The notes under the pieces: model-generated
Told to the model about the DNA's origin: nothing
The model's input: only the letters and a program-made list of their open reading frames with translations
Databases searched by the model: none
Made by a program: the position numbers and the translations under genes
Shown: positions 1 through 15,638 of the stretch, piece after piece
Layout of the letters: every line of letters starts with the position of its first letter
Numbering within the stretch: position 1 is the stretch's first letter
Assembly: GCA_016783065.1 (NCBI GenBank)
Contig: JADHXI010000019.1
Span: 1 to 32,025 of the forward strand
DNA from: Desulfobacteraceae bacterium
GTDB taxonomy: Bacteria; Desulfobacterota; DSM-4660; Desulfatiglandales; Desulfatiglandaceae
Reading direction: 5' to 3'
Length of the DNA: 32,025 bases

Positions 1-677
1 AATCCCACCCCAAATGTCTCGCCAAATCCCTTCAGGATGGCATCTTTGACCAGTTTCATCGGGGGAACCTCCCCCAGTTCCCATTTCAGGCAGGTCATCC
101 GCTCTTTGAGGGAATAGATTTCTTTGTCTTTCAGCTTTTCCGTCGGGACCCGAAGCGCACGGAGCATTGTCTGGATATCCAGGTCTATCAACAAGGTACC
201 CTGAAACAGGAAGGCCTCGTGAACCTCGGTGCCGCCTGTCCCGGAGATTTTTCGCCCCTTTACCTCGATATCATTTACCGGTCTGAAAGACGCTTCTATG
301 CCAAGGGACCGGAGGCCGGCGATGGCGGCGTCACACAATGTGCGATAGAGCCCCAGGATATCCCGTGAGGCAACATCTTTTCCCGCAATGAGTTCCCAGC
401 CCAGGGTATCCTCTCCAAAATAGATCGTCCCCCCTCCGGTTATACGGCGATTGATATGGATCCGCTTCCGGGCGCAATAGTCCTCCCGAATCTCCTGCTC
501 TACGCTTTGATGGAAACCCACGAGACAACAGTGGGGCTGAAACTGCAGGAAACGAAAGGTGTTGGAGACAACCCCCTTTGCGCGTGCCTCGAGGATCGTC
601 TCATCCAGACACATGTTTTCCGCGGCAGTTCTCTTACCCGTATCCAGCAAGCGCCAGTTCTGCACACCGTTACGCAT
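1..677 (-). CDS. Lipoate-protein ligase A family protein (3' end truncated by window edge)
   Basis: My reverse-strand translation from ATG at 677-675 (MRNGVQNWRLLDTGKRTAAENMCLDETILEARAKG...) stays open to the left edge. Contains RRITGGGTIYF and NDIEVKGRKISGTGG, the LplA-family RRxxGGG and catalytic-Lys motifs. Start overlaps the radical SAM stop (TAATG). Absent from the ORF track because no stop lies in the window. Confidence 0.85.
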   Translation of the reverse strand, partial: MRNGVQNWRLLDTGKRTAAENMCLDETILEARAKGVVSNTFRFLQFQPHCCLVGFHQSVEQEIREDYCARKRIHINRRITGGGTIYFGEDTLGWELIAGKDVASRDILGLYRTLCDAAIAGLRSLGIEASFRPVNDIEVKGRKISGTGGTEVHEAFLFQGTLLIDLDIQTMLRALRVPTEKLKDKEIYSLKERMTCLKWELGEVPPMKLVKDAILKGFGETFGVG

Positions 678-1714
678 TATGAAATGGCTATCCCAATCTG
701 ATTCTCGATTATTTTTGTGTCTTCCGGACCTGGCGGGAATGGATAATTCCGGAGGAGGCCATTCATGGCCTGGGCGGGGGTCTCATTGGCATAGGGTCGG
801 TTGCAGCCGGAACAACCGGTGGTCATAAAGACTGTGCCTTTTTGTATAATGCTCTGTATCCTGTCACCGGGCAACCCAAAAGCCACCAATCTGCCGGCTT
901 CAAAACGCATCCTTTCAAACCGCGCCTCTTCCTTGTCTATAAGATACCTGGCCAGCTGAACCCTTCGATATTGATCCATGGGAGGCTGTGACCGATTTTC
1001 CATTGCCGAGCCCTTTTCCGGGAAAAAAGAAAACAGATGCACCCGTGCTCCCATATCGTAACACTCCTGGATAAAACCGATAGCCTCTTCCTCGGTCTCG
1101 CCCAGCCCGATGATCAGATGCACCCCTACCCCTTTACGCCCATTTCCAAAAACCGCAACGGCCTCTCTGACCCCGCTTATATAGCGAGCCCATTTATGGG
1201 GGCCCTTGACTCCCCGACCACGCAGTTTTTCAAAGAGCTCCGGTGTTGCTGCATCAACGGCAACCGTTGTATTCTCCGCCCCTGCGGCCTTAATCATTTC
1301 CAGATCGCTTTGTTTGAATAAACTGGGGGTGATCAGGGTAGAAACCTTAAGCCCTGTGCCCGCCTTGACCGCCTCCACCATCTTCACAAGGTCTTTTGGG
1401 GCGCCGGGTGCGTTGAGGGCGGAAATGCACACTCGCTGAATAAAGGAATCGTTTTCAGCGGCCTTTCTGGTTGCTATAATAACTTCCTCAAGGGGATAGG
1501 ATGGCCACTCCACTCGAATGAGATTCTTGCAATCAGGGCCGCCTGATACCCCGGCGGCCTGGCCGCAATACTGGCAGTTGGCCCGGCAACCATCATCATA
1601 CTCCATAAGGAGGTTGATACACCCAAGCCGGGCGTTTCTATAAAATTTCCCGGGTTTTAGTCCGAGGGTCATTGCCGCTGCAATGCTCAATCTTGCTGTT
1701 TCAGGTGAAGCCAT
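677..1714 (-). CDS. Radical SAM protein, LipS-like (lipoyl-synthase-type of the sHdr-associated lipoate pathway)
   Basis: CRANCQYC (CxxxCxxC) radical SAM cluster motif, C-terminal TTGCSGC; located between a GcvH-like gene and a lipoate ligase. Start chosen at ATG 1714 (MASPETARLS), just after the upstream gene. Confidence 0.75.
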   Translation of the reverse strand: MASPETARLSIAAAMTLGLKPGKFYRNARLGCINLLMEYDDGCRANCQYCGQAAGVSGGPDCKNLIRVEWPSYPLEEVIIATRKAAENDSFIQRVCISALNAPGAPKDLVKMVEAVKAGTGLKVSTLITPSLFKQSDLEMIKAAGAENTTVAVDAATPELFEKLRGRGVKGPHKWARYISGVREAVAVFGNGRKGVGVHLIIGLGETEEEAIGFIQECYDMGARVHLFSFFPEKGSAMENRSQPPMDQYRRVQLARYLIDKEEARFERMRFEAGRLVAFGLPGDRIQSIIQKGTVFMTTGCSGCNRPYANETPAQAMNGLLRNYPFPPGPEDTKIIENQIGIAIS

Positions 1715-1715
1715 G

Positions 1716-2123
1716 TTATTGCTCTTCGCAGGTTTTGATATAATCAAGATACTCCACAGGAGACATGAGCCCGTGTGATCCGGTTCCACTTTGTATCCCA
1801 ACCCTGACAAACCACCCCTGTGTAAATGGGGCCTTGTTGACCAGCTCAGGATTCTTGATTACTTCATTATTTACCGCCATTACCTGCCCATCTATGGGTG
1901 AATATAACCTGTCCACCCACTTGCTGGTCTCAATGGTACCAAAATCCTGATCCACCTCCATGGCGGCTCCCTTCGGCGGCAGTTCCACATAATTCACATC
2001 GCCGGCACTTTTTTGGATGTAATCGGTCCATCCAAGGGTACAAAGTCCATCTCTTATCTTTACCCACAAATGTTTGCGCGTATAATTCAAGTCCTCGGGA
2101 ATATTCACGTCTTCAAATTGCAT
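1716..2123 (-). CDS. GcvH-like lipoyl carrier protein (LbpA-type), copy 2
   Basis: MQFEDVNIPEDLNYTRKHLWVKI...DFGTIETSKWVDRLYSPIDGQV: GcvH/biotinyl-lipoyl fold with a candidate lipoylation Lys in ETSK. Confidence 0.82.
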   Translation of the reverse strand: MQFEDVNIPEDLNYTRKHLWVKIRDGLCTLGWTDYIQKSAGDVNYVELPPKGAAMEVDQDFGTIETSKWVDRLYSPIDGQVMAVNNEVIKNPELVNKAPFTQGWFVRVGIQSGTGSHGLMSPVEYLDYIKTCEEQ

Positions 2124-2200
2124 CAATTGTAATTTCTCCCCTATCCACATCAGTTGCTCAGATCATGATTGGCTAAAGAAAATCCGCCATGATCCCGTTC

Positions 2201-2374
2201 CTACCACCAGCATACGACCTTATCGTTTTCAAACACCAACTTCACCAGTTCGTCGTAATCCACGTTTCCCTGATACATTTCAAATTCTTTGACTTCATTG
2301 CCCTCAGATGAGGGTTGTATGAGCCCTTTTATGATCTCATCGGGCTCTGACTTGAGCACGTGTAAAATCTTCAT
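2201..2374 (-). CDS. Small DsrH/TusB-like sulfur relay protein
   Basis: MKILHVLKSEPDEIIKGLIQ...VDYDELVKLVFENDKVVCWW; C-terminal pattern resembles the DsrH-like protein at 4137-4397 (GYDKLVDLVFENKV). Confidence 0.55.
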   Translation of the reverse strand: MKILHVLKSEPDEIIKGLIQPSSEGNEVKEFEMYQGNVDYDELVKLVFENDKVVCWW

Positions 2375-2385
2375 ATTGACCTCCA

Positions 2386-2691
2386 TCAAAACGGAACAAT
2401 CACATCATATTCACATAGTTTCTTTGCCATATCATCCAAGGATACATACTCGAAAAAGCCCCATTTGTCCACATTCGCTTGGGTATCTGTAAAATGCTGG
2501 CATTCCAGCTCGTCCTTGAGAAACTCAAGGTTTTCTTTGTAACCTTCAACCCTGTCTTCAGGCATGTTTACCTCTCCGATGACAAACAAGTCCGCCTCTA
2601 CCATCTCAAGACCCAGGCCCAGGCCGGACCGTAGTCCTTCCCACTGATTTTCCGCGTCTCGGATTACTATTGCCACTTTGTTTGGTTCCAT
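2386..2691 (-). CDS. DsrE-family-like small protein
   Basis: MEPNKVAIVIRDAENQWEGLRSGLGLGLEMVEADLFVIGEV...; size, fold-like pattern and context in a dsrE/tus-like cluster. Confidence 0.5.
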   Translation of the reverse strand: MEPNKVAIVIRDAENQWEGLRSGLGLGLEMVEADLFVIGEVNMPEDRVEGYKENLEFLKDELECQHFTDTQANVDKWGFFEYVSLDDMAKKLCEYDVIVPF

Positions 2692-2704
2692 CTTCCTCCT
2701 CCCT

Positions 2705-3028
2705 CTACAGGACCAAGTAACGGTCACATTTTCCAATAAGTGAAACGTGTCTGGACTGGGTGGCCAAACCCTTTTCACCCATCCCTGCCGGGATGGGCTT
2801 GCCTTTCAGTCCCAACTCTTCCCACCGCACATTGCAGAGTGTCATCTCTTCGGGACCCAAATCCGCAAGCTCCTGGTATTTTGGGTCCTGTGACATCAAT
2901 ACCCCGTCGTGAGTAAGGAAAATGACAAGTTCCTTTCCTGCCTTCTTTGCGGCCTTAACAACCCCGATGACATGATCAAGGTGCTTGTTGGTAGCGACAA
3001 AGATGCCCAGTTTTTCCTTTTCTGCCAT
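2705..3028 (-). CDS. DsrE-family (peroxiredoxin-like) protein
   Basis: MAEKEKLGIFVATNKHLDHVIGVVKAAKKAGKELVIFLTHDGVLM...TLCNVRWEELGL...; DsrE/DsrF-like Rossmannoid pattern with Cys residues. Confidence 0.6.
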   Translation of the reverse strand: MAEKEKLGIFVATNKHLDHVIGVVKAAKKAGKELVIFLTHDGVLMSQDPKYQELADLGPEEMTLCNVRWEELGLKGKPIPAGMGEKGLATQSRHVSLIGKCDRYLVL

Positions 3029-3045
3029 AAAAAATATCCCCCTTT

Positions 3046-4107
3046 TCAGTTCTTTTCTCCCATGATCGCCCGTACCATATCATCCGGCGTGATCACCGCA
3101 GATTGCAGGTCGTTTGATGCATAGAAGGATTTAATGGTTCTTAGCAATGAACCGGCTTCAACCGGTTGTCCCATAAGATGATCTTCCAGGCCTTTGAGAT
3201 CGATTTGTGAGTGAAATGCGAACTCACAGGATATGACGATGTCATCGATGGTATCATTTTTCAATCGAAGGAGGACCCTTATTGGACCTCCGGCTGATCT
3301 GTACTTTGATTCCATTACCCTTACATCGGTTGTTATCTTGATCCAGCCGTTTATCTTTCCACCTTCTTCATGGAGCCACCCAGGGTCGGTGAACCGGCCG
3401 TCCAGCTCCGCCACCATCCGGCGCTCATCAGGCGTTAAGCTCCCCCTAAGTAAAGGGACCTCCAGCATCCTCTCAAATTCACTGATCAAAAGACCTTTCA
3501 CCGCTTCCCGCTCAGGAATATAGCCCAGTTCGGCTCGCAGTGAAGTCACATAGTTCTCCATGGCTTCGCAGACCTTGTTTCTAAAGGCTTCAGATGAGAC
3601 ACGAAGCACCCGGGACATCTCTCCATGATCAAAATCAAACATGATATTCCCCACCACGACCGATGCATCACCTATTCTTCCGGCCCCGGTACCACATATT
3701 TTTTTGTCGCCAATCTGGATGTCATTGGCTGGGCGATATCGGGCATCCAACCCCATTTTGCGATAGGTATTGACTGCGGGCTGCAAGAACAGCTTATAGA
3801 GATTATCGACCTTCATGGGGACACTGCCACTGGGAAATATACATTGAAAAAACAGCTGTTCTTTATCCAGATAGACTGTGCCTCCTCCCACCTCCCTCCT
3901 CAGAAACGGAATTCGTTTTTGAGTACAGTATTCAGTGTCTATCTCCTTTTCCAGAACTTGATGATAACCAATGCAAACGTAAGGCTCTCTGGGATTCAGG
4001 ATGATAATGGTCCCCTGCGAGGCCTCAGTGGTGCAATGGGCCACAGCATGGTAAATGGTCTGTGACTGCAGATAAGACACATAACCCAGATCAAGCAATC
4101 TGACCAT
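3046..4107 (-). CDS. Lipoate-protein ligase A family protein (full length)
   Basis: RREVGGGTVYLDKEQLFFQ and NDIQIGDKKICGTGAGR motifs of LplA/BPL_LplA_LipB. An upstream start at 4140 would overlap the preceding stop. Confidence 0.85.
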   Translation of the reverse strand: MVRLLDLGYVSYLQSQTIYHAVAHCTTEASQGTIIILNPREPYVCIGYHQVLEKEIDTEYCTQKRIPFLRREVGGGTVYLDKEQLFFQCIFPSGSVPMKVDNLYKLFLQPAVNTYRKMGLDARYRPANDIQIGDKKICGTGAGRIGDASVVVGNIMFDFDHGEMSRVLRVSSEAFRNKVCEAMENYVTSLRAELGYIPEREAVKGLLISEFERMLEVPLLRGSLTPDERRMVAELDGRFTDPGWLHEEGGKINGWIKITTDVRVMESKYRSAGGPIRVLLRLKNDTIDDIVISCEFAFHSQIDLKGLEDHLMGQPVEAGSLLRTIKSFYASNDLQSAVITPDDMVRAIMGEKN

Positions 4108-4136
4108 CACCCCACCAGTCGATAGCCCTGAACATG

Positions 4137-4397
4137 TCAAACAAAATTCGCTACTTTGTTTTCAAAAACGAGGTCAACAAGCTTGTCATAACCGATAATG
4201 TCTGCCGTGTCCTTTAAGCGGTCCTCCATCCCACGCCTCTTAACGTCTTCGTCAATGGCGTATATTTTTTTGTCCTTAACCGCTTCGGTATCAAGGTAGA
4301 CACCGTCCTTGATCAAAACCACGATGGCATCGGGATCCATCTGGGCATATTGCAGTCCCATGGGTCCTATTATTTTGTCTCCGCATAGATAGAGCAT
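4137..4397 (-). CDS. DsrH/TusB-like protein
   Basis: MLYLCGDKIIGPMGLQYAQMDPDAIVVLIKDGVYLD...; third position of a DsrE-F-H-like gene order. Confidence 0.6.
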   Translation of the reverse strand: MLYLCGDKIIGPMGLQYAQMDPDAIVVLIKDGVYLDTEAVKDKKIYAIDEDVKRRGMEDRLKDTADIIGYDKLVDLVFENKVANFV

Positions 4398-4408
4398 GTG
4401 ATTACCTC

Positions 4409-4759
4409 CTAAAAATCCATACTGAAATCATTCTCTTGAAACAGCTCAAAGGCCCTTTCTTTTGAGATCACGGTGATATCGTCGGCCAACTCGGCTTCCG
4501 TTATCCCCCTCTCGTCCAGATCTTCTTTGACAGCGCAAAGCTCTGTCCCCATTCCCTTGTAGGATTCAAAATAGGCAAGGGCATCCGTCCTGTCCACATC
4601 CTTCAGACAATAAAAAACGCCATCCGATTGGAACAGAACCGTAGGGATATTCTCATCGATCCCGGCACTTACTCCAACTGCCGCCCGCAGGCCCTCTGTG
4701 TAGAACACGGTCCCAAAAGGCGCTCTGCAAATATTTATCAAGACTTTTTTCTCCGCCAT
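4409..4759 (-). CDS. DsrF/TusC-like protein
   Basis: MAEKKVLINICRAPFGTVFYTEGLRAAVGVSAGIDENIPTVLFQSDGVF...; middle position of a DsrEFH-like set. Confidence 0.65.
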   Translation of the reverse strand: MAEKKVLINICRAPFGTVFYTEGLRAAVGVSAGIDENIPTVLFQSDGVFYCLKDVDRTDALAYFESYKGMGTELCAVKEDLDERGITEAELADDITVISKERAFELFQENDFSMDF

Positions 4760-4800
4760 TCAACATCCCTCCTTAAATCAGTTGAGTCTCTGAGACCCAC

Positions 4801-5154
4801 CTAGAGTGTAATAAACGTATCTGCATCACTGACCATGTCCGCAAGATCGGGTAATCCGCCAACGCGAACTCCGTCAATAAACTCCTTTCCTCCTTCCAGA
4901 CCTCTGGCGTTTACACAGATGCCACAGGCTATAATTTTGGCTCCCTTCTCCACCAGTTTTTTCATTCTCTCTACGGGAAGGGGCACATCCTCTGGAAATT
5001 TTTGATGTTTGATTGCGTTGTAGACCGAATCAATATACCAGAAGCCCTCAACCTCATGTCCCTTATCCAGGGCGGCCTCTGCCAGACGCGCAAAGATCTC
5101 ATAATTCTCCGTCTGCCAGGGACCTTCTGTTAACATAATAGCCATTCTCGCCAT
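4801..5154 (-). CDS. DsrE/TusD-like sulfur relay protein
   Basis: MARMAIMLTEGPWQTENYEIFARLAEAALDKGHEVEGFWYIDSV...KIIACGICVNARG: DsrE-type Cys motif (ACGICVNARG). Confidence 0.75.
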   Translation of the reverse strand: MARMAIMLTEGPWQTENYEIFARLAEAALDKGHEVEGFWYIDSVYNAIKHQKFPEDVPLPVERMKKLVEKGAKIIACGICVNARGLEGGKEFIDGVRVGGLPDLADMVSDADTFITL

Positions 5155-5199
5155 AACCCATTACCTCCGTTTCCAATTTTTGCTTCAGGAGCCCCAATT

Positions 5200-5646
5200 T
5201 TACTCGAATACCCCCTTGGCTTCATATTCTGCATATTCCGCCTCGAGCCACTTCTGAATATCCTCCCCCTCACTGAGCAGATCCTTGAGATCTTCCTCCA
5301 GATTGGATGCCTCAATAAACAGAAAAAATCCCTCGCCAAAGGGGTCAGTGTTTACCAATGTGGGGTCGTCGATTACCTTCTGATTGATCTCTGCAATATC
5401 ACCCCCGACAGGAGCCCTCAGGGGTCCGATATATTTGCCTGCCTCAATGGATCCAAAAGGCTTCGATTTCTTCACCTTTGCCCCTGCCGGCTTCAATTTT
5501 ACGTATTGGGTGTTGCCTCCGGTAGCCTGCACCCCAAAGGCATCCAGACCAACCTGAACCCGGTTGCCCTCTACTCTTGCCCATATGTGTTCTTTGGGGT
5601 CATAGTAGAGATCATCCGGCAAACTTATCCCTTTAAATTCTGCCAT
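5200..5646 (-). CDS. GcvH-like lipoyl carrier protein (LbpA-type), copy 1
   Basis: MAEFKGISLPDDLYYDPKEHIWARVEGNRVQVGLDAFG...FGSIEAGKYIGPLRAPVGG; candidate lipoylated Lys in EAGK. Confidence 0.85.
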   Translation of the reverse strand: MAEFKGISLPDDLYYDPKEHIWARVEGNRVQVGLDAFGVQATGGNTQYVKLKPAGAKVKKSKPFGSIEAGKYIGPLRAPVGGDIAEINQKVIDDPTLVNTDPFGEGFFLFIEASNLEEDLKDLLSEGEDIQKWLEAEYAEYEAKGVFE

Positions 5647-5667
5647 AGCTATTCACCCTCCCCGTCG

Positions 5668-5916
5668 CTAATCGGCCTTTTCAATAACAAATCGCCACTT
5701 GCCAGCATCCATCTCCGAGACCTGGAACGGATATTTCTTCTTTGTCAAAAAATTCGGGATGGACTCCTCCGCAGCGGGTTGATAGTCCACGATTACCTCC
5801 AAGACCTGTCCTTTCCCCAAAGGTTTCAGGGCATCCCTGGCCCCCATAACCGTATAAGGGCACGTCTTGCCACTCAGATCCGCAGTAGCATCGGGTTTGA
5901 CATCTTCTAGGCTCAT
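5668..5916 (-). CDS. TusA-like sulfurtransferase/carrier protein
   Basis: ADLSGKTCPYTVMGARDALKPLGKGQVLEVIVDYQPAAEESIPNF; TusA/YeeD-family N-terminal CPxx motif and small size. Confidence 0.75.
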   Translation of the reverse strand: MSLEDVKPDATADLSGKTCPYTVMGARDALKPLGKGQVLEVIVDYQPAAEESIPNFLTKKKYPFQVSEMDAGKWRFVIEKAD

Positions 5917-6026: not shown

Positions 6027-8153
6027 CTAGCCTGAGGATATGGATCGCCCCACCAGTTGTATGAGATCCAGGACCTCTACCTTTGCATCAATATTTCTCA
6101 CGGCGGTGGTTAGTGTACGGACGCACTGCTGACAGGCGGTAGCGCAGATTTCTGCTCCCAGATCGCGGATCTGCCCTGCCCTTTTTGCGGCAACTTTTGC
6201 TGTCAACCCGTCGTCGTACATCTCAACGTCTCCGCCGCCCCCGCAGCAGAGCGATTTTTTCCCGTTTTCAGAGAGTTCCAAGAATTTCAATCCAAGTATG
6301 CTTTGAATGACCCTGCGCGGGGCCTCATACACCCCCGAGGCACGACCCAGATCACATGGGTCGTGGTAGGTAACGGTTCCGGTCAGGTCTTTTTTTAATT
6401 CAATTCGACCCGTGTCTATCAACTCCGCCAAGAACTGAGCCGCATGTACAAGCCTCACATCTTTTATATCTGCGGCGTAATCATGGGACCAGGTGTGAAA
6501 ACAGGAAGGGCATGAAAACACCACGGTCCTGGCCCCAATTTCCCGTATGGCATGAATGTTATGTTCCTTGAGTTCCTCCGCCCCTTCGAAAATGCCGGCT
6601 GAGAGAAGCGGGAACCCGCAGCACCATTCCTTCTCTCCCAGGATGGTAAAATCCACACCGGCCGTGGTTAGAATCCTACAAAACTCTTCCGGGATCTTTT
6701 GGACTGCCGGAGAAAAAGAGGAAACACATCCGATAAAGTAAACTGTTTCTGCCGTTTGTCTCTGGAACTCGTCATCCGGGGGGTCATCCATAAATTCCAC
6801 CCACATGGCCCGTTCTTCATTGTCATAGTCCAAGGGATTGTGCTCGTTGCCCACGGCCTCTTGAACTATCTGAAGGATAGGTGGGTGTAGACCTTTCCCG
6901 GCGAGATGCTCTCTCATTCGTTTCCACAGATCCCTGAGACCAATGCTTACGGGGCAAACTTCTTTACATCTCCCGCAAAGGGTGCAACGGTAGACGCCTT
7001 TCCAAATCCCCACAAGCTGGGAATCACTGAGTTCCCTTTTGGCCACAAGGGATTTTAGCGATTCGATCCGTTCAGACGGAAGGATGTTTTCATTATCAAT
7101 GGTCTCCATGGATACCGCAATGGAGCACCACAGGCTGCATGTCTTACACCGAGTACAGCTATCCAGTTCAATGATCTCTTTGGTGGCACTATTGGCCGGG
7201 TCAAATCTTTCTTTGTCTGCGACCGCGTTGGTAAGGATACTCAATGGGCTGGCGAAGATATGAAACATCTTACTAAAGGGCAGATAAGCCAGGCCAACAA
7301 AGCATGCCAGGAAATGAATATACCAGCGGAGCTTCGGAAAGCCGGCCCGATCCAACCCGATGGCAATCGGTTTGATGGCCTCGGCCACCCCGTAGCTTAT
7401 AAAGGCCCATTGGGGTCGGGAATGGCAGGCAGCACAACTCATTTCATGGAGTTCCTTTCCCTGGGCCAGACGCTCTTTATCGAACAGCCCCTTTCGGTTG
7501 GGTGCAACGACCCCAAACTTCTCAATCCAGTAACTCTCTAAGGACCTCAGCTCCTGTTCATCGTCTGAATCCGCATACTCCTCCACCATACGCTGATAGT
7601 CGTTGTAGGACACGATTTTTGTTGCTTCCAAAAAAATCCCGGAGAACAGGATCACGGCAAGCACCACCATAGCGTAGATATCCACGGTATTGGTGATGAG
7701 GTGCGGTACTTTCAAAACAAATCGCCTGTAGACCGCAATGCCCAGACCTACGATCACAACGGCGGCAAAGATATTTCTGAGAAATAAGAATGGGTTCAGG
7801 GTAGAAACGTAATCTGTAAAGAGGAGAGAACTTGTGAATTTTTCCAGGGCATGCATCAGCAGCAAAAGACTAAAGCCCCAGAATATACATATGTGCATGG
7901 CCCAGCGAAGCCGGCTCTCCCTGTATACGCTGACCTGAAAAAGTACATCCGTAAAAAAGGCCTCCAGAAGGGTCAAAATCCGGGCACTGAATACAGTCAG
8001 AAAAATTCCCTTTAACGCCGCAGAGGCTCTCTTCGCAGTTCCAGGCCTCCCTTCATCCCTGTCAAGGCTGTACCGGAACCAATTGGATATCCTGTAGCAC
8101 AAACCCAAAACAAAGATTATCAGCGCGATATACAGGCTTACTGTGAACAACAT
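6027..8153 (-). CDS. Membrane-bound heterodisulfide reductase-like (HdrD/HmeD-type) Fe-S protein with inserted c-type haem motif
   Basis: N-terminal NarI-like transmembrane region; CAACH (CXXCH) motif encoded at about 7422-7436; two 4Fe-4S motifs (CTRCKTCSLWC, CTLCGRCKEVCP); two CCG-type motifs (EKEWCCGFPLLSAG, KSLCCGGGGDVEM). Confidence 0.85.
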   Translation of the reverse strand: MLFTVSLYIALIIFVLGLCYRISNWFRYSLDRDEGRPGTAKRASAALKGIFLTVFSARILTLLEAFFTDVLFQVSVYRESRLRWAMHICIFWGFSLLLLMHALEKFTSSLLFTDYVSTLNPFLFLRNIFAAVVIVGLGIAVYRRFVLKVPHLITNTVDIYAMVVLAVILFSGIFLEATKIVSYNDYQRMVEEYADSDDEQELRSLESYWIEKFGVVAPNRKGLFDKERLAQGKELHEMSCAACHSRPQWAFISYGVAEAIKPIAIGLDRAGFPKLRWYIHFLACFVGLAYLPFSKMFHIFASPLSILTNAVADKERFDPANSATKEIIELDSCTRCKTCSLWCSIAVSMETIDNENILPSERIESLKSLVAKRELSDSQLVGIWKGVYRCTLCGRCKEVCPVSIGLRDLWKRMREHLAGKGLHPPILQIVQEAVGNEHNPLDYDNEERAMWVEFMDDPPDDEFQRQTAETVYFIGCVSSFSPAVQKIPEEFCRILTTAGVDFTILGEKEWCCGFPLLSAGIFEGAEELKEHNIHAIREIGARTVVFSCPSCFHTWSHDYAADIKDVRLVHAAQFLAELIDTGRIELKKDLTGTVTYHDPCDLGRASGVYEAPRRVIQSILGLKFLELSENGKKSLCCGGGGDVEMYDDGLTAKVAAKRAGQIRDLGAEICATACQQCVRTLTTAVRNIDAKVEVLDLIQLVGRSISSG

Positions 8154-8213: not shown

Positions 8214-8588
8214 CTATACCATGGAGGAAAAGACATCACATGAACGGCACATCTTCATTTTTTCCTTCCAATTTTCGTGAATCACGCCTTCACAGATAGT
8301 ACCATTGACAAACCAGCACAGGTCCCCTGCCCGGAACTCCCACGCAGGACATTTTTTCTTTCGCTCGGGGGGGCATCTCTTTATAGTCCAGCACGACTTT
8401 CCCGACTCCTTGTCGCCTTTGATCCTTGCGATCAAAAAAAGAAGCTGCCGCTCCGCATGAACCGGGACGGATCGCCACCCCTGTTCGTAGCTGTGAATCG
8501 CCTTAACGGACGTTCCGAGCAACTGTGCCATCTGGGTCTGCGTCTTGTTCAGTTTCTTGCGAAAGGATATGAATTCTTTGCTGTCCAT
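8214..8588 (-). CDS. XRE-family HTH protein with C-terminal Cys-rich (two-CW-like) domain
   Basis: FRKKLNKTQTQMAQLLGTSVKAIHSYEQGWRSVP is a classic HTH_XRE; followed by CWTIKRCPPERKKKCPAWEFRAGDLCWFVNGTICEG...MCRSC. Confidence 0.75.
   Translation of the reverse strand: MDSKEFISFRKKLNKTQTQMAQLLGTSVKAIHSYEQGWRSVPVHAERQLLFLIARIKGDKESGKSCWTIKRCPPERKKKCPAWEFRAGDLCWFVNGTICEGVIHENWKEKMKMCRSCDVFSSMV

Positions 8589-14379: not shown

Positions 14380-15638
<1,259 letters not shown>

Follow-up and report, generated by a model that had tools for sequence, protein, structure and literature searches.

A candidate lipoyl-linked redox and sulfur-relay operon in an uncultured, apparently sulfate-reducing bacterium of the Desulfobacterota

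Introduction

Lipoic acid is familiar as a cofactor of the 2-oxoacid dehydrogenases and the glycine cleavage system, and within dissimilatory sulfur metabolism the sHdr pathway is where it has an established function. What, then, might a closely packed set of genes for lipoate assembly, GcvH-like lipoyl carriers and sulfur-relay proteins be doing in a member of the Desulfobacterota? Such a cluster occupies one end of a 32,025-nucleotide contig of a Desulfobacteraceae bacterium (JADHXI010000019.1, assembly GCA_016783065.1), the whole of which is referred to here as the window. A sequence-only reading had matched the cluster to the sHdr-linked lipoate pathway and had noted the lack of soluble HdrABC in the window. 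Each of these statements holds in part. Assembly genes of the LipS1/LipS2 type are indeed found with carriers and a sulfur relay, but the nearest context is a cytochrome–HdrD–GcvH system, not sHdr; likewise no sHdr cluster was recognised, but a membrane HdrD-like protein (6027–8153) had been overlooked, as had a regulator (8214–8588).

The cluster is unusual. It looks like a widespread HdrD–GcvH–ligase module joined to a LipS module and a sulfur relay, and our preferred reading, to which we assign a probability of about 0.5, is that it combines lipoyl-carrier redox chemistry with sulfur relay, HdrD coupling electrons of quinone and cytochrome to a lipoyl carrier on which sulfane sulfur from TusA/DsrE is handled. 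Gene content, gene order, conserved catalytic residues, separate glycine cleavage genes and the pairing of HdrD with GcvH in many genomes, all directly seen, form the basis of this reading.

The operon and its relatives

The window is the complete contig C49 of the host genome (G000; 3.69 Mb, 72% complete), so the part of the cluster beyond its left end was taken from relatives. Fourteen minus-strand genes, separated by gaps of −1 to 110 bp, begin at position 8588 and extend to the contig end at position 1 in the following order.

8214–8588, minus strand: XRE-type helix-turn-helix regulator with a Cys-rich tail (PF01381, 4.5e-5), 60 bp before hdrD
6027–8153, minus strand: HdrD-like membrane protein of 708 amino acids (CCG, 1.6e-31; Fer4_8; weak NarI), its position kept in G001, G002 and G450
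5668–5916, minus strand: TusA-like sulfur carrier (PF01206, 4e-16)
5200–5646, minus strand: GcvH1, putative lipoyl carrier with EAGK-Y and without Cys (PF01597, 6.6e-28)
4801–5154, minus strand: DsrE-like sulfurtransferase (PF02635, 9.8e-21; matches DsrE of structure 2hy5)
4409–4759, minus strand: DsrF/TusC-like protein (TIGR03010, 1.3e-7; 2hy5 DsrF, 1.2e-4)
4137–4397, minus strand: DsrH/TusB-like protein (PF04077, 2.9e-9)
3046–4107, minus strand: lipoate-protein ligase 2 (LplA-B_cat, 1.2e-38), of the type found in HdrD–GcvH operons
2705–3028, minus strand: small conserved protein, possibly DsrE-like (PF02635 at E=0.014 only)
2386–2691, minus strand: small conserved protein of unassigned family in the DsrF position of a possible second triad (82% identity to its G450 counterpart)
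2201–2374, minus strand: shortened DsrH paralogue of 57 amino acids (profile comparison with the cluster's own DsrH, 4.5e-5; shuffle test)
1716–2123, minus strand: GcvH2, putative lipoyl carrier with ETSK-W (PF01597, 1e-32)
677–1714, minus strand: LipS2-type lipoyl synthase of the radical S-adenosylmethionine (SAM) group (NF053743, 246 bits, E=4e-73)
1–677, minus strand: lipoate-protein ligase 1, N-terminal 225 amino acids, cut by the contig end (LplA-B_cat, 1.6e-46, over 3–677)

Ten of the twelve proteins named in the sequence-only reading (two ligases, two carriers, the LipS-like protein and the TusA-, DsrE-, DsrF- and DsrH-like proteins among them) are thus borne out by family or profile matches, and the Desulfobacterota lineage that it supposed agrees with the 'Desulfobacteraceae' label of the relatives and with the dsrA, dsrD and aprA matches described below. 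The regulator is the probable first gene of the operon, and its C-terminal end is found immediately before hdrD in G001 too. The GC content (0.495 against 0.504) gives no sign of recent transfer.

The same gene order is found in two Desulfobacteraceae metagenome-assembled genomes, CSMAG_720 and CSMAG_5, and in genomes G001, G002 and G450; with packing this close, the arrangement is not a matter of chance. A scan of genome contigs with GcvH1 recovered only the two close relatives CSMAG_720 and CSMAG_5, and in an even sample of 395 genomes of the phylum, DsrF was found in the host genome only. The idea that the cluster is confined to its own genus was overturned, however, by a survey of 85 genomes of the order, in which DsrF was found in G000, G001, G002, G450 (another genus of the same family) and G458 (another family). 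G450 holds the whole cluster, its hdrD being cut by a contig end, and the TusA/DsrEFH version of the operon is therefore present in four genomes of two genera. In G450, genes for an HdrB-like (266 amino acids) and an HdrC-like (137 amino acids) protein lie directly before gcvH2 (L158:8122–9289); neither is at that place in the window or in G002. Two of the contigs retrieved appear under two names each (L008 and L018; L009 and L096).

Two carriers outside the glycine cleavage system

In alignment with solved GcvH structures, the ETSK motif of GcvH2 falls on the lipoyl-lysine site, and EAGK of GcvH1 aligns with ETSK in the family alignment; both carriers, as had been proposed, are therefore predicted to be lipoylated. 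The residue after the lysine separates them from glycine cleavage H proteins: Lys-Ala is found in all 11 canonical GcvH sequences (each adjoining gcvP or gcvT), whereas in each of the 60 others the lysine is followed by Trp or Tyr. The host's canonical gcvH lies beside gcvPA and gcvPB at C123, neither gcvT nor gcvP is found near the carriers at 1716–5646, and canonical gcvT, gcvH and gcvP are also present in ten relatives. A glycine cleavage role was rejected on these grounds, and the carriers lie outside the glycine cleavage system, in keeping with the earlier expectation.

The description of carriers and ligases as duplicates does not fit. GcvH1 and GcvH2 are about 32% identical and the two ligases about 30%, and in a tree of 71 sequences the carriers fall on separate branches, GcvH1 among non-canonical carriers and GcvH2 weakly beside canonical GcvH, which rules out a recent duplication. 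Since both sit on long branches, these placements are uncertain. Nor is a pair of carriers distinctive in itself, two being common in sHdr clusters too (PMC6067878). The LbpA proteins of sHdr systems, some archaeal ones excepted, have two strictly conserved Cys (PMC6067878), and this signature is absent from both carriers: GcvH1 has no Cys, and GcvH2 has a conserved C-terminal Cys132 and a Cys28 that is Tyr in G450. A tblastn search of plasmids with LipS1, made in search of LbpA references, gave no match.

Other GcvH-like genes were seen in passing. A second lipoyl cluster at C86 of the host genome (L037:7792–12522) encodes a NUDIX protein, a histidinol-dehydrogenase-like protein, a GcvH of the K-W type, an LplA-like protein and a LipS2-like protein; most of the relatives retrieved also contain gcvH, the ligase and LipS2 of this set, usually together with the hisD-like gene. 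At C149 (L092:7716–9698), two consecutive proteins of ~310–330 amino acids carry a C-terminal GcvH-like domain and lie beside response-regulator-like genes, and similarly long GcvH-containing frames recur in relatives. At L091:5575–8226, a GcvT–serine hydroxymethyltransferase fusion of 883 amino acids adjoins canonical gcvH and gcvP, with similar lengths in relatives.

Lipoate assembly

NF053743 (LipS2) is the best NCBIfam match of the radical SAM protein; the score lies below the family cut-off of 270 bits and far above the next best match (47 bits). The protein carries a CX3CX2C motif and its nine Cys are kept in three genomes. Beyond the point at which the window ends, the cluster continues in G002 (L018) and G450 (L158) with the rest of ligase 1, a geranylgeranyl-reductase-like flavin adenine dinucleotide (FAD) protein in the position of LipT, and LipS1 (NF053742, 222 bits, cut-off 230). 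LipS1 had been predicted to lie past the left end, and it does so in the relatives along with LipT and the full-length ligase. The proven gene set of the pathway is lipS1–slpl(AB)–lipT–lipS2 (PMC10332631), and with contiguous ligase, lipT and lipS1 beside lipS2, the LipS1/LipS2 pathway is complete in these relatives. The same four genes are contiguous in many Desulfobacterota, and LipS1 was found in 57 of the 395 genomes. The earlier statement that LipS1/LipS2 is known mainly from sulfur oxidisers is overstated, as the pair is not confined to them and only 42% of bacteria with LipS1/LipS2 have sHdr (PMC10332631). Because the host also has lipA and a separate canonical gcvT/gcvH/gcvP set, the LipS1/LipS2 route is presumably a second, dedicated lipoate pathway.

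The two ligases differ in their associations. In relatives (L008/L018, L158), ligase 1 is a protein of 513–517 amino acids in which the LplAB part is joined at its C-terminal end to DUF116 (PF01976; 3e-10 for the protein of G002), a domain with nine conserved Cys, and this type accompanies lipT, lipS1 and lipS2. Outside its own cluster, ligase 2 finds its best matches in ligases beside HdrD–GcvH pairs (L113, L110, L145). LplA–DUF116 fusions with many conserved Cys stand regularly beside lipT and lipS1 in Desulfobacterota (L008:7130–8683, L025:15497–17059 and other loci), and the DUF116 part is possibly an Fe–S or sulfur-donor component of lipoyl synthesis. A literature search found no paper naming DUF116 with lipoate and none describing LipS1 in Desulfobacterota; for the latter PMC11582611 alone surfaced, with one mention of each word.

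The HdrD-like protein and its module

The HdrD-like protein combines a NarI-like cytochrome b region (NarI, 3.2e-4, slightly under cut-off), a CAACH haem-c motif, two 4Fe–4S motifs (Fer4_8, 2.6e-9) and two CCG domains, the CCG family matching in two stretches. In G001 its Cys are kept except Cys19, and both CCG motifs are conserved. A NarI-like cytochrome b with 4Fe–4S and CCG parts recalls DsrMK(JOP) and methanogen HdrDE. In the window, however, a single polypeptide unites these parts and also carries a haem-c motif, and its gene is linked to that of a lipoyl carrier in place of DsrC or CoM-S-S-CoB. In a related cluster (L025, not the window's own), the CCG proteins score far below the DsrK, TmcB and HdrB equivalog cut-offs.

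Searching the 395 genomes with the C-terminal half of HdrD gave matches of at least 238 bits in 43, the next matches being at 225 bits and lower. A gcvH lies within 1.5 kb of HdrD in 22 of the best 30 loci, the window's own included, and in many of the HdrD–GcvH loci cytochrome b/c is encoded separately and a ligase 2-type enzyme is present as well. Given this adjacency, HdrD, GcvH and ligase form one module, widespread in Desulfobacterota, which often also includes the DUF116-type ligase, lipT, lipS1 and lipS2. This cytochrome–HdrD–GcvH system, and not sHdr, is the nearest kin of the window's cluster, which differs from it in having TusA and DsrEFH and in its fusion of cytochrome and HdrD, separate genes elsewhere. 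The module is apparently undescribed (a literature search found no paper naming HdrD and GcvH together) and is arguably the more interesting finding. At six loci (L052, L055, L059, L070, L075, L081), multihaem cytochrome c and a cytochrome b-like membrane part form a single protein of 611–679 amino acids, and these fusions adjoin gcvH, HdrD and a full LipS cluster.

The sulfur-relay proteins

The relay genes resemble dsrEFH/tusBCD with tusA in their E–F–H order, in the 2hy5 matches of DsrE and DsrF, and in the position of the DsrE Cys: Cys77 matches the conserved Cys in 2hy5 DsrE and is invariant in five genomes, as is Cys51 of the DsrF/TusC-like protein. TusA keeps an invariant Cys19 in the alignment of four genomes, with CPYT in place of CPxP. 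Unlike the known systems, the DsrH/TusB-like protein has no conserved Cys, the DsrEFH proteins score well under the TusC and TusD equivalog cut-offs, and neither dsrC nor mnmA is in the cluster.

Three further DsrE/H-like proteins had been proposed downstream. For 2201–2374 this is correct, since the profile comparison identifies a DsrH paralogue and the shuffle test gave 1 in 1000. It was not upheld for the other two: profile comparison (hhalign) and shuffle tests for a DsrE fold were negative, Foldseek returned no matches, and the AlphaFold models of 2705–3028 and 2386–2691 have predicted local distance difference test (pLDDT) values of 47 and 55. The former keeps Cys65 and Cys101 in three genomes; the latter has no conserved Cys and no family match in Pfam or NCBIfam. 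The E–F–H-like order nonetheless suggests that the three small genes are a decayed second triad, and a possible degenerate triad of this kind is a further difference from DsrEFH/TusBCD.

The host and the search for sHdr

The host genome has dsrA, dsrB, dsrD (Pfam DsrD, 9e-29) and a fragment of aprA, and in G002 the aprA match is almost full-length and interrupted by a single internal stop. These matches suggest that the host reduces sulfate and is not a sulfur oxidiser of the sHdr type. An sHdrC1B1A–C2B2 arrangement with lbpA was found in the operon of neither G000 nor G002, and no sHdr cluster was recognised in G000, where genes may be missed at 72% completeness. The only HdrABC recognised in G000 is a generic one at C29 with a long HdrA of 1143 amino acids.

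What might the operon do?

By homology to the proven pathway, the two ligases would attach octanoyl or lipoyl groups to the GcvH-like carriers, and LipS2 and LipS1, with electrons from LipT, would insert the two sulfurs. DsrK and HdrD act on DsrC or a heterodisulfide; by analogy, the CCG active site of HdrD may act on the lipoyl dithiol/disulfide, with the NarI-like part linking the lipoyl arm to the quinone pool and haem c. The conserved Cys of TusA and DsrE might then carry sulfane sulfur to or from the lipoyl carrier. As the host has dsrABD, the reductive direction seems likelier, quinol electrons passing to dihydrolipoyl and sulfide being released from protein persulfides; an oxidative direction would also be possible, and both substrate and direction are guesses. 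The whole operon, conserved in four genomes of two genera, suggests a lipoyl-based relay of sulfur or electrons that is distinct from both glycine metabolism and the sulfur-oxidation system already known. Several observations weigh against this reading. G458 has an orphan dsrEFH with no lipoyl genes on its contig and the HdrD–GcvH module usually comes without sulfur-relay genes, so that the two parts are perhaps only loosely joined; DsrH without a conserved Cys and the CPYT of TusA set the relay apart from a standard TusBCD; and the position of GcvH2 in the tree is unsure.

The resemblance to sHdr–LbpA systems is close enough to raise the possibility of a divergent or reduced form of that sulfur-oxidation pathway, GcvH1 and GcvH2 being LbpA1 and LbpA2 and the soluble HdrABC lying elsewhere or being replaced by HdrD. 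LipS1, LipT, an LplAB-type ligase and LipS2 clustered with two GcvH-like carriers and TusA/DsrE-type genes are the known accompaniment of sHdr (PMC6067878, PMC10332631), the host genome is incomplete, and the HdrB/HdrC-like pair before gcvH2 in G450 keeps an sHdr-like reading alive. We nevertheless think it unlikely: the Cys pair of LbpA is missing from both carriers, the G450 HdrB has its closest relative within G000 in the generic HdrABC at C29, and dsrD and aprA indicate sulfate reduction. That pair apart, the cluster lacks sHdrA/B/C and has a membrane HdrD–cytochrome b protein instead, together with a DUF116-bearing ligase and a second ligase, in a host with dsrABD. The operon might alternatively serve two functions, lipoyl–HdrD electron transfer for an organic substrate and a DsrEFH/TusA sulfur supply for lipoyl synthesis or tRNA thiolation. 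Most HdrD–GcvH modules do lack DsrEFH, several have FAD-linked oxidases (L025, L047, L085, L116), LipS1/LipS2 need a sulfur source, and the dsrEFH of G458 stands alone. What makes this rather doubtful is the interleaving of tusA–gcvH1–dsrEFH–lpl2–small genes–gcvH2, kept across two genera, the lack of an FAD oxidase in the window's operon, and the existence of dozens of LipS1/LipS2 clusters without DsrEFH. It is very improbable that the carriers are ordinary H proteins, or proteins relaying lipoyl from GcvH to E2: their good Pfam GCV_H matches and the weak placement of GcvH2 beside canonical GcvH are outweighed by the canonical gcvH at C123, by K-Y and K-W in place of K-A, by long branches and by the HdrD and LipS neighbours.

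Elsewhere in the window, an ATP synthase subunit c at 14664–15638 consists of four fused hairpins (Pfam ATP-synt_C in four stretches). By eye, the Glu of the AES motif is kept only in hairpin 1, the others reading CQT, SQT and SQS.

Significance

Returning to the reading of lipoyl-carrier redox joined to sulfur relay, a broader proposal can be made, which we hold more tentatively and at somewhat less than even odds. A class of Desulfobacterota membrane complexes not described so far may use a lipoylated GcvH-like protein, and not DsrC or a thiol coenzyme, as the mobile disulfide substrate of HdrD–cytochrome b/c, and the window would hold a variant in which sulfane sulfur from TusA/DsrE is reduced or oxidised on the lipoyl arm. 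The HdrD–GcvH–lpl2 set offers a concrete target for experiments in cultured Desulfobacterota having the module without DsrEFH. If the proposal is true, apparently sulfate-reducing, uncultured seep bacteria would have a second lipoyl-based respiratory system, served by its own lipoate synthesis.

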